DNA of 11,556 bases from Candidatus Desantisbacteria bacterium CG1_02_49_89 (GTDB lineage Bacteria; Desantisbacteria; UBA1551): positions 1 to 11,556 of the forward strand of contig MNUP01000008.1 of NCBI GenBank assembly GCA_001871075.1, read 5' to 3'. The translations under genes and the position numbers were made by a program. Shown piece by piece: positions 4,857 to 8,930 of this stretch; the stretch's first letter is position 1; every line of letters begins with the position of its first letter. The notes under the pieces are model-generated. The model had not been told where the DNA came from. It did no database searches and worked only from the letters and a program-made list of their open reading frames with translations.

Positions 4857-4942
4857 GAGAATGGAAAATGGAGCAATAGACCGCTCCGATGTAACATCGG
4901 AGCTCTAATTTTTCGCGCAGCGAAAAAAATGCCGGAGGAGAG
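4857..4942. repeat. Duplicated tRNA-adjacent block (copy A)
   Basis: An 86-bp block almost identical to 5035-5119. It includes a purine-rich unit (GAATGGAAAATGGAGCAATA), a 9-bp-stem hairpin at 4883-4903, a hairpin with arms TTTTTCGC at 4909-4927, and 12 bases equal to the 3' end of the tRNA-Leu gene (GCCGGAGGAGAG at 4931-4942). The hairpin loops are inverted relative to copy B. Confidence 0.8.
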
Positions 4943-4997
4943 CTGACTACGCTAAGGTTTACACTTCGTAGCTTTAGCGTAGTAGTGCTTCGTCAGC
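4942..4997. repeat. Palindrome between the duplicated blocks
   Basis: Ten-bp arms ACTACGCTAA (4946-4955) and TTAGCGTAGT (4974-4983) sit inside outer arms GCTGAC (4942-4947) and GTCAGC (4992-4997). It separates copy A of the tRNA-adjacent block from copy B and may be a REP-type insertion. Confidence 0.55.
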
Positions 4998-5034
4998 CAT
5001 GGATTTGTTCCTTTGTGAGACCTTGCCAAAAGCC

Positions 5035-5119
5035 GAGAATGGAAAATGGAGCAATAGACCGCTCCGATGTTACATCGGAGCTCTAATTTTTCGCTGCGCG
5101 AAAAATTGCCGGAGGAGAG
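5035..5119. repeat. Duplicated tRNA-adjacent block (copy B)
   Basis: The 85-bp counterpart of 4857-4942. Its last 13 bases are the genuine 3' end of tRNA-Leu with the discriminator. Hairpins lie at 5061-5081 and 5085-5107, immediately downstream of the tRNA in the direction of transcription, where they may help define the transcript end. Confidence 0.8.
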
Positions 5120-5189
5120 ATTTGAACTCTCAAGACCTTTCGGACAGTGGATTTTGAGTCCACCGCGTATACCATTCCGCCACTCCGGC
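5107..5189 (-). tRNA. tRNA-Leu (anticodon CAA)
   Basis: A class II tRNA of 83 nt including discriminator A73. The acceptor stem GCCGGAG pairs with CTCCGGC. The anticodon stem GTGGA/TCCAC encloses the loop CTCAAAA with anticodon CAA at 5154-5156 (reads UUG). A long variable arm (TGTCCGAAAGGTCTT) follows, and the T arm is GAGAG-TTCAAAT-CTCTC. CCA is not encoded. The long variable arm and A73 support leucine identity. The gene is flanked on both sides by inverted low-complexity repeats and on its 3' side by a duplicated block that repeats its last 12 bases, which makes the locus a plausible recombination or integration hot spot. Confidence 0.95.
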
Positions 5190-5321
5190 TAATAATCTAT
5201 TGCTCTATTCTCTATTTTCAGCTTTTAGATCTATTTTCTATTGCTCTATTCTCATTTTATAATCTATTATTCAATTGCTCCATTTTCGGATTTTGAGTTT
5301 ATTGTTCCATTCTCTATTTTC
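5190..5321. repeat. Degenerate ATTGCTCTATTCTC-type minisatellite
   Basis: About four imperfect copies of units such as ATTGCTCTATTCTCTATTTT, at roughly 5201, 5238, 5273 and 5300. On the minus strand they read as GAAAATAGAGAATAGAGCAATAGA-type units cut into pieces. The same purine-rich unit occurs in opposite orientation at 4857 and 5035, so the tRNA lies between inverted copies. Confidence 0.6.
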
Positions 5322-5605: not shown

Positions 5606-5905
5606 TTAAGTCAAGGTTATAAGAACCTTCTTGCCGAGAGCGTCTGCCACTTTTTCAAGCACTGACAGCGAGTATCCGCGGTAGTCCAGGGACTCCATTC
5701 TGGAAATTGCTTCCTGAGAGGTTTTTGCCAGCTTCGCAAGCTGGGATTGCGTGAGATTTTTTTTCTTTCTTGCCCTGATAAGCTGGAGCGCTGTCGCGAC
5801 AAAGGGATCGTCGTCCGCCTGCCGGGCGTATTTTCTGAATTCAGGGTTCTTAAGTTTCTTTTTCTCCCATTCCTCAAAACTCATCAGCTTTATTTTTTTC
5901 ATCAT
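5606..5905 (-). CDS. higA: HigA-like XRE-family antitoxin
   Basis: 99 aa. The N-terminal extension (SFEEWEKKKLKNPEFRKYAR) is typical of HigA proteins paired with Gp49/HigB toxins. An XRE helix-turn-helix follows at about residues 40-92: ALQLIRARKKKNLTQSQLAK, LAKTSQEAISRMES, YSLSVLEKVADALGKKV. It should neutralise the upstream toxin by binding it and repress the operon through the palindrome at 6285-6302. Its start overlaps the toxin stop by four bases (ATGA), so translation is coupled. A second ATG follows directly. Confidence 0.85.
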   Translation of the reverse strand: MMKKIKLMSFEEWEKKKLKNPEFRKYARQADDDPFVATALQLIRARKKKNLTQSQLAKLAKTSQEAISRMESLDYRGYSLSVLEKVADALGKKVLITLT

Positions 5906-6264
5906 AGCTTATACTCTCCCCGGGCGAACCTTGTTTCAAAATCCTTTTTAATTCTCAGCGCCCTTTCTATTTCTTCTTGCGGCACCCTGTCTGTCTTTTT
6001 GGTAAAGCCATGAGTGCATATTATGTGATTTTTCATAAAAAAGAAGTGTAAAACCCTGTGCTGATTGCCGCTGGATATCGCTCTCAATTCTCTTATGCCC
6101 TGGTCCAGATAATCCACATAGGGTCTTTTAAGCTCGTAGCCCATTTCCCGCAGAAGTTTTAACAGATTACTGATTTTAACCTGCGCCTTTACCGGCAGAC
6201 TATCCAGATATTCTTCAACCGGGCAGCCGCCGTCAGCAGACCTGTAGTATCTTATTTTCCACAT
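5902..6264 (-). CDS. higB: HigB-like (Gp49/RelE-superfamily) toxin
   Basis: 120 aa, matching the Gp49-like branch of HigB toxins: WKIRYYRSADGGCPVEEYLD, a helical part with KISNLLKLLREMG, then GIRELRAISSGNQHRVLHFF (residues 56-75), HGFTKKTDRVPQEEIERAL (85-103) and a basic C-terminal helix. The GIRELR, HRVL and HGFTKKT motifs are the conserved core of these mRNA interferases. A GGAG Shine-Dalgarno lies 5 bases before the ATG. The order toxin first, antitoxin second is the usual HigBA arrangement. The gene sits directly behind a TTGACA-17-TATAAT promoter with an operator-like palindrome. Confidence 0.87.
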   Translation of the reverse strand: MWKIRYYRSADGGCPVEEYLDSLPVKAQVKISNLLKLLREMGYELKRPYVDYLDQGIRELRAISSGNQHRVLHFFFMKNHIICTHGFTKKTDRVPQEEIERALRIKKDFETRFARGEYKL

Positions 6265-7766: not shown

Positions 7767-8293
7767 TTTGAAGCGATCTTTATGCACGCTATCTCGCATT
7801 TCGGCTTGCCGTCGTTGGGCGGGTCTATCCTGAAACCGGTCACCTTTCCCTTCCAGTACTTGCTGCCCGACATGTCTATCTTGTACTCGTGCCATGCGCC
7901 GTCACCCGAAAAACCCGCCTGGGCCTTCTTGTTCTCATCCCACTTCTGGTCGTCCTCGGTGATGAAGAATATCGCGTCGCCCGCCCCGGTGCTCATTTTC
8001 ATTTTTATTATAATATCCGTAAATCTCGAAGCGTCTATGTCGACCGCGGGTGAAAAAATATAGGGGTCGTAGCCGTTGCATTCAAGAACAAGGGCGCCGG
8101 CGGCTATTTCCGCCTTCCCTATATTGCTCACCGGGCAACTCACCCAGTCTTCCCCGCCTTTGGAGAAATCCCAGTTGTAAAGCACGTCTACCCCGCCCTC
8201 TTTCGTCACTTCAGCCGCAGAAATACGGTTGAAGGTTAAAGGTTGAAGGTTAAAGGTTAAAACAAGAATCAGTAATAAAGAAATTCTGCGCAT
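7724..8293 (-). CDS. Secreted carbohydrate-binding-like domain, upstream part of the frameshifted protein
   Basis: 189 aa in this frame. A Sec signal peptide (MRRISLLLILVLTF, then a repeat-derived stretch, with cleavage likely after ISAA) is followed by a beta-sandwich resembling carbohydrate-binding modules, residues 30-178: YNWDFSKGGEDWV, GALVLECNGYDPYIFSP, RFTDIIIKMKM, WHEYKIDMSG, VTGFRIDPPND, CEIACIKIAS. Such domains are common at the front of secreted glycan-acting enzymes. At codons 177-179 (GAA AAA AAG) is the slippery heptamer A AAA AAG. A -1 shift there joins it to the long beta-helix frame, otherwise translation stops ten codons later. AAAGGGGG precedes the ATG. The cupin and metallophosphoesterase genes lie upstream. 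Confidence 0.65.
   Translation of the reverse strand: MRRISLLLILVLTFNLQPLTFNRISAAEVTKEGGVDVLYNWDFSKGGEDWVSCPVSNIGKAEIAAGALVLECNGYDPYIFSPAVDIDASRFTDIIIKMKMSTGAGDAIFFITEDDQKWDENKKAQAGFSGDGAWHEYKIDMSGSKYWKGKVTGFRIDPPNDGKPKCEIACIKIASKEKKFLCAAPVYTL
7757..7763 (-). other. A AAA AAG slippery site linking two reading frames
   Basis: The zero-frame codons GAA AAA AAG contain the dnaX-type heptamer A AAA AAG within a run of seven A. A -1 slip joins the 179-codon upstream part to the 451-codon downstream part. No obvious strong downstream stem-loop was found, so an indel in the homopolymer is as likely as programmed frameshifting. Confidence 0.55.
8228..8255 (-). repeat. 14-bp tandem repeat inside the signal-peptide coding region
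   Basis: The unit GTTGAAGGTTAAAG occurs twice exactly (8228-8241 and 8242-8255). Translated on the minus strand it gives LTFN...LTFN in the signal peptide of the carbohydrate-binding protein. The same text-like style of repeat fills the intergenic DNA just upstream. Confidence 0.7.
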
Positions 8294-8591
8294 AAAACCC
8301 CCTTTCCTTATCAGTGGCCAGTGTCCAGTTTAAAAATTAAAGATTGCAGATTGTAGATTGAAGGAATTTCATTTAATTAATTCCTTGTTGTTGCTCTGAC
8401 ACGCTGACACGCTGATGCGTTGACACGCCTTAAATCAAGGACACTGGTCGCCTCATCGGCGGGTCGCCGAAGTGGCGACAAGTGTCAAGAGTCAAGTTAA
8501 AAACAAATTCCGGACACCAGACGTTAAATTTAAAACTTTAAATAGAAATCCTTGTTGTTGATTCATAATTTATAATTCATAATTCATAATT
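8294..8591. other. Intergenic mosaic of short tandem motifs
   Basis: Between the cupin gene and the carbohydrate-binding gene lie AGATTG units (8342-8361), TGACACGC-type units (8397-8429), a strong hairpin (8440-8486), and TTCATAAT units (8561-8592). No coding region and no convincing promoter was found. A promoter for the downstream gene may be hidden here, since the hairpin would separate it from the cupin gene. Confidence 0.5.
8440..8486 (-). terminator. Strong hairpin downstream of the cupin gene
   Basis: Thirteen-base arms (GACACTGGTCGCC and GGCGACAAGTGTC) with one mismatch enclose a nested CGGCG/CGCCG stem. It lies about 105 bp after the cupin stop in the direction of transcription. 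There is no clear T tract, so it may be a REP-type palindrome or mRNA-protecting hairpin and not an intrinsic terminator. Confidence 0.4.
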
Positions 8592-8930
8592 TCAGTAGGT
8601 TATCTTGTCTTCGGGAAGGAACGGGCATTTGATAAAAATATACCTTACCGGGGCGCTTGTGTCGTTAACGATATCGTGTTTTTCCTTCGCTTCCAGGCGG
8701 AACACGTCCCCCTGCTTTACCCGGTGTTCCTTATCGTTCACCAGGATCTTCGGTTCGCCCTCGAAGAAATAAAACACCTCCTCGACCTCGTTATGGCCGT
8801 GCGCCCCCATCGCCTCGCCGGGTTCAAGCCGTATTATGCCCCATTCAAGTTTCGGTCCCCGCATCAGGTATTTCGGCCCCGACTTGTTGCCTTTCCTGTA
8901 TTCTTTTTCATTTTCATTTACTTTTTCCAT
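8592..8930 (-). CDS. Small single-domain cupin protein
   Basis: 112 aa from the ATG at 8930, which is preceded by AAGGGG at 6 bases; an upstream TTG at 8966 is less likely. Cupin motif 1 is GAHGHNEVEEVFYFFEG, giving the metal ligands His, His and Glu. Motif 2 is GDVFRLEAKEKHDIVN, giving the fourth ligand His, with the usual proline-glycine replaced by AK. The protein is therefore probably a metal-binding beta-barrel of the cupin_2 type, cytoplasmic. Such proteins include sugar isomerases, dioxygenases and sensors, and no substrate can be assigned. It lies between two secreted-protein genes, about 110 bp downstream of the metallophosphoesterase gene. Confidence 0.8.
   Translation of the reverse strand: MEKVNENEKEYRKGNKSGPKYLMRGPKLEWGIIRLEPGEAMGAHGHNEVEEVFYFFEGEPKILVNDKEHRVKQGDVFRLEAKEKHDIVNDTSAPVRYIFIKCPFLPEDKITY

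Follow-up and report, generated by a model that had tools for sequence, protein, structure and literature searches.

The window, that is, the whole stretch of 11,556 nucleotides analysed here (contig MNUP01000008.1 of Candidatus Desantisbacteria bacterium CG1_02_49_89), encodes on its minus strand a tRNA-Leu with anticodon CAA and no encoded CCA (5107-5189), identified with ARAGORN and Rfam (RF00005, 60.9 bits) and by a check of the acceptor stem. Beside it are two near-identical blocks, at 4857-4942 and 5035-5119, which share 93% identity and start 178 positions apart. A sequence-only reading had already placed them there and had attributed their differences to two hairpin loops; this describes most of the differences, to which a small change in an A/T run beside the tRNA end (AAAAAAATG versus AAAAATTG) has to be added. 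On the plus strand, hairpin 1 reads GCTCCGATGT(A/T)ACATCGGAGC (4883-4903 and 5061-5081) and hairpin 2 reads TTTTTCGC(GCA/TGC)GCGAAAAA (4909-4927 and 5087-5105).

Read in the sense of the tRNA, block 2 directly follows the 3′ end of tRNA-Leu(CAA) and has the sequence AATTTTTCGC-GCA-GCGAAAAATT, AGA, GCTCCGATG-TAA-CATCGGAGC, then GGTCTATTGCTCCATTTTCCATTCTC. From its sequence and fold, we describe it as an inner trailer (5035-5106, minus strand), composed of hairpin 2, which borders directly on the 3′ end of the tRNA and has a GCA loop (plus-strand TGC, 5095-5097), hairpin 1 with a central A (plus-strand TTA) and the GGTCTATTGCTCCATTTTCCATTCTC tail. A 92-nt stretch on the same strand, single-copy in the genome (4943-5034), separates it from block 1, which starts with a second copy of the last 13 nt of tRNA-Leu (CTCTCCTCCGGCA, 4930-4942, minus strand). 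The outer trailer (4857-4929, minus strand) lies beside this tRNA fragment and carries both loops in the opposite orientation, namely TGC in hairpin 2 (plus-strand GCA, 4917-4919) and a central T in hairpin 1 (plus-strand TAA). Thus, the duplication also includes the last 13 nt of the tRNA and its copies are separated by an insertion, two features absent from the earlier account. On the other side of the gene, the 5′ leader of tRNA-Leu (5190-5321, minus strand) contains purine repeats (GAGAATAGAGCAATAGA) with 84% complementarity, over 31 nt, to the tail of the trailer.

Two other features of the window were recorded. A gene resembling HTH_3 antitoxins (PF01381) and a Gp49/HigB-like gene (PF05973) at 5606-6264 on the minus strand form an ordinary higBA-type toxin-antitoxin pair. 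A direct repeat of ~200 bp is present at both contig ends (1-220 and 11297-11510), so the contig was probably cut by the assembler at a genomic repeat.

A structured trailer behind tRNA and tmRNA genes

Both blocks of the window are copies of a 3′ trailer common to most tRNAs and the tmRNA of this genome, a relationship that the sequence-only reading had not recognised. The trailer begins with a hairpin set directly against the 3′ end of the tRNA; next comes either another hairpin or an extended inverted repeat, and then a pyrimidine tail. We surveyed the 2.48 Mb assembly (150 contigs), which contains 43 tRNA genes and, with the tmRNA gene, 44 genes of these two kinds; matches were examined within the stretches of sequence surrounding them. 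A pattern describing the tail retrieved 44 matches genome-wide, compared with 0 for the reversed control, and all 44 were located on the same strand as a tRNA or tmRNA and no more than 430 nt downstream of it, where 0.2 were expected. Genome-wide, no match to the tail pattern was found away from a tRNA or tmRNA. The tail serves 35 of the 44 genes, nine of which have two copies. Trp and Ala-TGC, which, judging by their downstream sequence, appear to run into other genes, are among the tRNAs lacking a trailer. The trailer was weakly associated with CCA-less tRNAs (29/34 versus 4/9, p=0.02), an association that displaced tRNA ends may explain.

The trailers fall into two types. Type 1 contains hairpin 1, while in type 2 a long purine arm, AGAGCAATGGAGCAATAGAAAATAGAGAA, together with GCGANATTGC, replaces it ahead of the same GGTCTATT tail. 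The tmRNA is followed by a type 2 trailer and then by a tandem copy with a type 1 module of a different stem. A perfect hairpin of at least 9 bp abuts 30 of the 43 tRNA ends in this genome, while the same test gave 1/34 in the nearest relative compared, 0/24 in Elusimicrobia UBA5214 and 0 in shuffles of the genome's own set. Since this search required perfect stems, it is their variety, rather than their perfection, that is informative: the stem sequences of hairpin 2 vary by locus with pairing kept, and hairpin 1 shows exchanged stems (GCTCCG/CGGAGC, GTCCGCC/GGCGGAC and GTCCCAAC/GTTGGGAC). As the MAFFT alignment of the trailers misplaces hairpin 2, the loop served instead as the anchor for counting pair types. 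The predicted RNA folds of four trailers were more stable than those of shuffled sequences, with z from -3.0 to -5.5. When the tRNA was folded together with its trailer, the tail paired alternatively with the 5′ half of the tRNA.

The position, strand and structure of the trailer and its restriction to stable RNA genes are established, and its role would be in ending or trimming transcripts. It would most likely set the RNA 3′ end, acting as a terminator, as a block to exonucleases or as the edge of an RNase Z substrate. The hairpin starts at the discriminator base or within a few bases of it. In CCA-less tRNAs, this would coincide with the site cut by RNase Z, and 3′ exonucleases would be blocked. 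An intrinsic terminator has a G+C-rich hairpin with a U-tract directly after it; here, the hairpins fold strongly, but the tail that follows them is of mixed pyrimidines (TCTATTGCTCTATTTTC) rather than a run of U, and hairpin 2 has no canonical U-tract directly after it. The nearest precedent that we found is the archaeon Methanopyrus kandleri, in which a lineage-specific palindrome occupies a fixed place ~10 bp downstream of about half of the tRNA genes and has been proposed as a 3′-maturation signal (PMC5217627). The two systems share a lineage-specific palindrome at a fixed site 3′ of many tRNA genes. However, the archaeal one consists of a single palindrome set off from the gene, while the hairpin described here directly adjoins the tRNA, precedes a second element and a tail, and is also present on the tmRNA.

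Alternatively, the trailer could be a mobile palindromic repeat, of the REP or MITE-like kind, that inserts at the 3′ ends of stable RNAs without serving the host. Trailers at unlinked genes are highly similar in sequence, nine genes have two trailers, and the hairpin 1 core is present elsewhere in the genome and within the RNase P RNA, all of which is in line with such an origin. It is hard to reconcile with a tail that never occurs away from tRNA or tmRNA, and the change of stems with pairing kept is what selection for structure would be expected to produce. In addition, the Ser-GGA trailer sits with an apparently native CCA-less tRNA end, whereas the restored end with CCA has none. We therefore regard a purely mobile origin as rather unlikely and favour a trailer that acts at the RNA 3′ end.

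Dispersed repeats offer a related comparison. One family is that of the short tandemly repeated repetitive (STRR) sequences of cyanobacteria, and another is that of REP/BIME elements, which are characterised by dispersed extragenic copies with an end tag and by a RAYT transposase. REP-type palindromes are the subject of PMC3733652. As in these families, short degenerate repeat units and palindromes are present here in intergenic DNA and also within the RNase P RNA; unlike them, the trailer tail is restricted to stable-RNA genes (44/44). The RNase P RNA gene itself (locus L149, 787-1321, contig C90, minus strand) is about 535 nt long and contains inserted palindromes; one copy of the hairpin 1 core (CCGATGTNACATCGG) is located close to its 5′ end.

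Loop orientation in the two hairpins

When the two blocks were compared, the copies of hairpin 1 (TAA/TTA) and those of hairpin 2 (GCA/TGC) were in each case 100% reverse complementary, in agreement with what had been reported for the loops. The sequence-only reading concluded that both hairpins had flipped in one copy. This is partly supported, best for hairpin 2, where 3 of 3 loop bases have changed to the exact reverse complement, and as likely for hairpin 1, where a single base differs. The arms of hairpin 1 form a perfect, odd palindrome, so a change of its central A to T automatically reads as an inversion, and hairpin 2 is the one of the two that carries real information on inversion. 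By a rough estimate based on the 1-2% divergence elsewhere in the block, the odds of three independent substitutions at its three sites are below 1 in 100,000.

To place this pair in the context of the family, three-base loops were tabulated in the tRNA sense at 25 stable-RNA loci of the genome. The 13 loop types comprised 5 reverse-complement type pairs (AAA/TTT, GAA/TTC, GTT/AAC, TCT/AGA and GCA/TGC), compared with 1.46 expected (p=0.0008), and 19 pairs of loci were in this relationship compared with 5 expected (p about 5e-5). The controls gave 0 pairs for simple reversal and 2 for simple complement. Under a null model that permuted columns and counted types, the excess was weaker (p=0.04). 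At the centre of hairpin 1, a hand count of 16 trailer copies with intact arms gave A in 9, T in 6 and G in 1; A or T is, thus, present in 15 of the 16 (p=0.0003 against even odds). The excess of reverse-complement pairs indicates that the loops do occur in both orientations. Unrelated loops were recovered as well (GTA, ACA, GAG, AAA and others), and because of this variation the independent changes that the sequence-only reading had named as evidence against inversion are in part present. Furthermore, four of five pairs of sister trailers (Pro-GGG, tmRNA, Gly-GCC and Met) have an unchanged hairpin 2 loop, which indicates that flipping is occasional.

Independent point substitutions in unconstrained, fast-mutating loops would make the match between the two blocks a coincidence. 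The family is diverse, with its 13 loop types, one change is enough for hairpin 1, and 6% of random locus pairs in the family are reverse complements of each other. Nevertheless, all three bases of the hairpin 2 loop changed against one or two sites in ~75 flanking bases, reverse-complement pairs are in excess across the family, and G or C is almost never found at the centre of hairpin 1, all of which makes coincidence improbable. A site-specific recombinase or invertase that turns the loops over as a switch, the second mechanism that the sequence-only reading had put forward, fares far worse and is very improbable indeed. One block does have both loops flipped within unchanged flanks, as a switch would produce; the invertible segments, however, are 1-3 bases long, too short for a recombinase core and its flanking sites, the stems vary across loci and leave no common recombination site, and no recombinase was present among the ten window proteins scanned.

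Inversion by copying across the hairpin during replication, the other mechanism that had been suggested, is partly supported by the family-wide excess. It is the best explanation for the hairpin 2 loop and likely accounts for the change in hairpin 1 too. The arms are perfect over 9-10 bp, above the 6-bp requirement for holding a switched strand, the DNA folds at -8 to -9 kcal/mol, and the predicted hairpin stability is equal in both loop orientations. With such near-perfect stems, the strand being replicated would be able to take the opposite strand as its template for the loop, which would turn over as its exact reverse complement; this turnover would have hit hairpin 2, and probably hairpin 1, in one of the two copies. 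Template switching between the arms of inverted repeats is a documented type of mutation, and loop-only inversions are significantly enriched in rRNA trees, bacteria included (PMC8794818). Spacer inversion in yeast is ascribed to the same process (PMC8604942), and minute inversions recur in chloroplast spacers such as trnH-psbA (PMC2903610, which cites Kelchner and Wendel 1996 on minute chloroplast inversions). The window shares with these cases a short loop between near-perfect arms that becomes an exact reverse complement with its flanks intact. It differs from the template-switch reports, which follow species trees, in that the changes are found in tRNA 3′ trailers at paralogous loci inside one genome. 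Template switching suffices and no recombinase is needed; taken alone, the loop flips would be ordinary.

Probable origin of the second trailer by insertion

The arrangement of intact tRNA, insert and displaced tRNA end recurs in the genome. At five tRNAs (Leu-TAA, Pro-GGG, Ser-GCT, Arg-CCT and Ser-GGA), a displaced trailer stands behind a fragment of about 12-18 nt from the tRNA 3′ end, and an insert separates the fragment and its trailer from the intact tRNA. Including 4930-4942 in the window, inserts flanked by a restored tRNA and a displaced 3′ fragment were thus recorded here and on contigs C81, C122, C117, C109 and C115. The insert at Ser-GGA (C81) contains an ORF for a GIY-YIG protein of 84 aa (Pfam E=5e-14). 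At this locus, the intact tRNA has CCA and no trailer, while the displaced fragment lacks CCA and retains the trailer, an arrangement suggesting a native trailer and a foreign insert.

The Ser-GGA insert ends in CTGACGAAGCCTCGGCGTAGTCAG and the window insert, which contains CTGACGAAGC, ends in GCGTAGTCAG; in both cases the tRNA fragment follows immediately. In the 140 kb of the genome that were searched, CTGACGAAGC and a GCGTAGTCAG placed before a fragment were found only in the window and in the GIY-YIG insert. The matches that link the two inserts are short (10, 10 and 9 nt; BLAST E=0.05). The 92-nt insert contains no GIY-YIG ORF and can therefore be no more than a relic of such an element. 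From the match at the junction, it is probable that it descends from a GIY-YIG-type element, with a weak alignment between the two inserts.

The genome encodes eight GIY-YIG domains, of which five are located on the same strand as a tRNA and no more than 300 nt away from it (p about 1.5e-9). These tRNA-near sites are at 222-476 of locus L189 (C81), C122:3058-3267, C74:10911-11111, C142:772-972 and C81:15516-15725. In phages of the T4 type, SegB is encoded by a small free-standing GIY-YIG nuclease gene beside tRNA genes, and the genes found here resemble it in size, independence and location. SegB is described as a homing endonuclease in PMC13096335. Unlike in the phage, the genes reported here are in a bacterial chromosome, with duplicated tRNA 3′ fragments, and their homing is putative.

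A plain tandem duplication of the 85-bp stretch, into which 92 bp of unrelated origin were later inserted, would need no tRNA-targeting element. A trailer tandem free of any insert is present at the tmRNA, and partial ones are found at Gln, Met and Gly, which keeps this a serious, if lesser, possibility. It does not account for an insert that abuts the tRNA fragment exactly and whose end matches that of the Ser-GGA GIY-YIG insert, nor for the recurrence of tRNA 3′ fragments before displaced trailers at the five tRNAs. We conclude that the window probably acquired its second trailer through an insertion at the 3′ end of the tRNA. As judged from the junctions, an inserted element would have doubled the trailer, leaving the order tRNA, inner trailer, 92-nt relic, 13-nt tRNA fragment and outer trailer.

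A different insert of ~110 nt, AGGGATTTGAAGCC.ACCCGA.CGCC...GG.GGCCGGCTTCG..GAGAAGAAATCC, was observed at tRNA 3′ ends in both genomes of the order. It follows tRNA-Leu(TAA) in the present genome (locus L053, C122), where the tRNA 3′ end is duplicated behind it, and tRNA-Gly(GCC) and tRNA-Leu(TAG) in Ca. Desantisbacteria CG1_02_38_46.

Combined reading and occurrence in other genomes

Taken together, the locus is reasonably well explained, if with considerable reserve, as a tRNA-Leu(CAA) trailer of a genome-wide kind that was doubled by the insertion of an element and whose loops were inverted by cross-strand copying. According to this proposal, the genome would set a structured trailer after nearly all tRNA genes and the tmRNA gene, in which a perfect hairpin would stack on the 3′ end of the tRNA ahead of another hairpin, or of a long purine/pyrimidine inverted repeat, and of a pyrimidine-rich tail. 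More speculatively, and as a tentative idea at this stage, a lineage within the Desantisbacteria may have adopted, on nearly all of its stable RNA genes, a standard two-hairpin trailer of homogenised sequence as a dedicated 3′-end system for CCA-less tRNAs and tmRNA, which GIY-YIG elements homing to the 3′ ends of tRNAs would repeatedly reshuffle, displace and duplicate.

As far as could be searched, the trailer is lineage-specific and highly regular. It is absent from CG1_02_38_46, the only genome of the same order that was compared; that genome was recognised by tRNA hits agreeing place by place (locus L143), and the organism of the window was accordingly taken as related to this group. When 59 genomes were searched, only the genome of origin was matched by the part of the query that covers the trailer. 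The hairpin 1 palindrome had no match in IMG/VR, which gives no link to phages. A GTDB scan retrieved 15 stretches containing the 21-nt palindrome, from varied phyla and all without the trailer tail. In Elusimicrobia UBA5214, the palindrome is located 30-50 nt downstream of two tRNAs, inside other tRNA-end structures, and was treated as a lead, not as a homologue. Several tRNAs of the same genome (loci L141, L144 and L154) are followed by apparent duplicates of the tRNA 3′ half with palindromes, such as GTCCCGATGTNACATCGGGAC or CTCTCCGATGTGACATCGGAGAG.

The literature searched contained no description of such a genome-wide stable-RNA trailer. This is the new part, and the one worth following up, the mechanism of loop inversion being already known. 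With ~80% of tRNA/tmRNA genes carrying the same structured trailer, the set amounts to natural parallel experiments. It could reveal how bacteria define the tRNA 3′ end when CCA is not encoded, how pairing survives changes in hairpin sequence and loop orientation, and how elements that target tRNA ends add and move trailers.

Repeats other than the trailer were also observed near genes. Degenerate tandem repeats of 7-9 nt that resemble STRR (GGTTGAAGGTTAAAGG, CTGACACGCTGACACG and ATTCATAATTTATAATTC) are located in the window at 8227-8260, 8395-8430 and 8560-8592. Such repeats are also present upstream of many tRNAs, and in several tRNA leaders they end with CTGTAGTT or a similar sequence. Finally, a purine repeat (GAGCAATAGAAAATAGA) is found in the 5′ leader of two protein genes, just before the ribosome site, at C111:9694 (L146) and C57:20570-20605 (L147).
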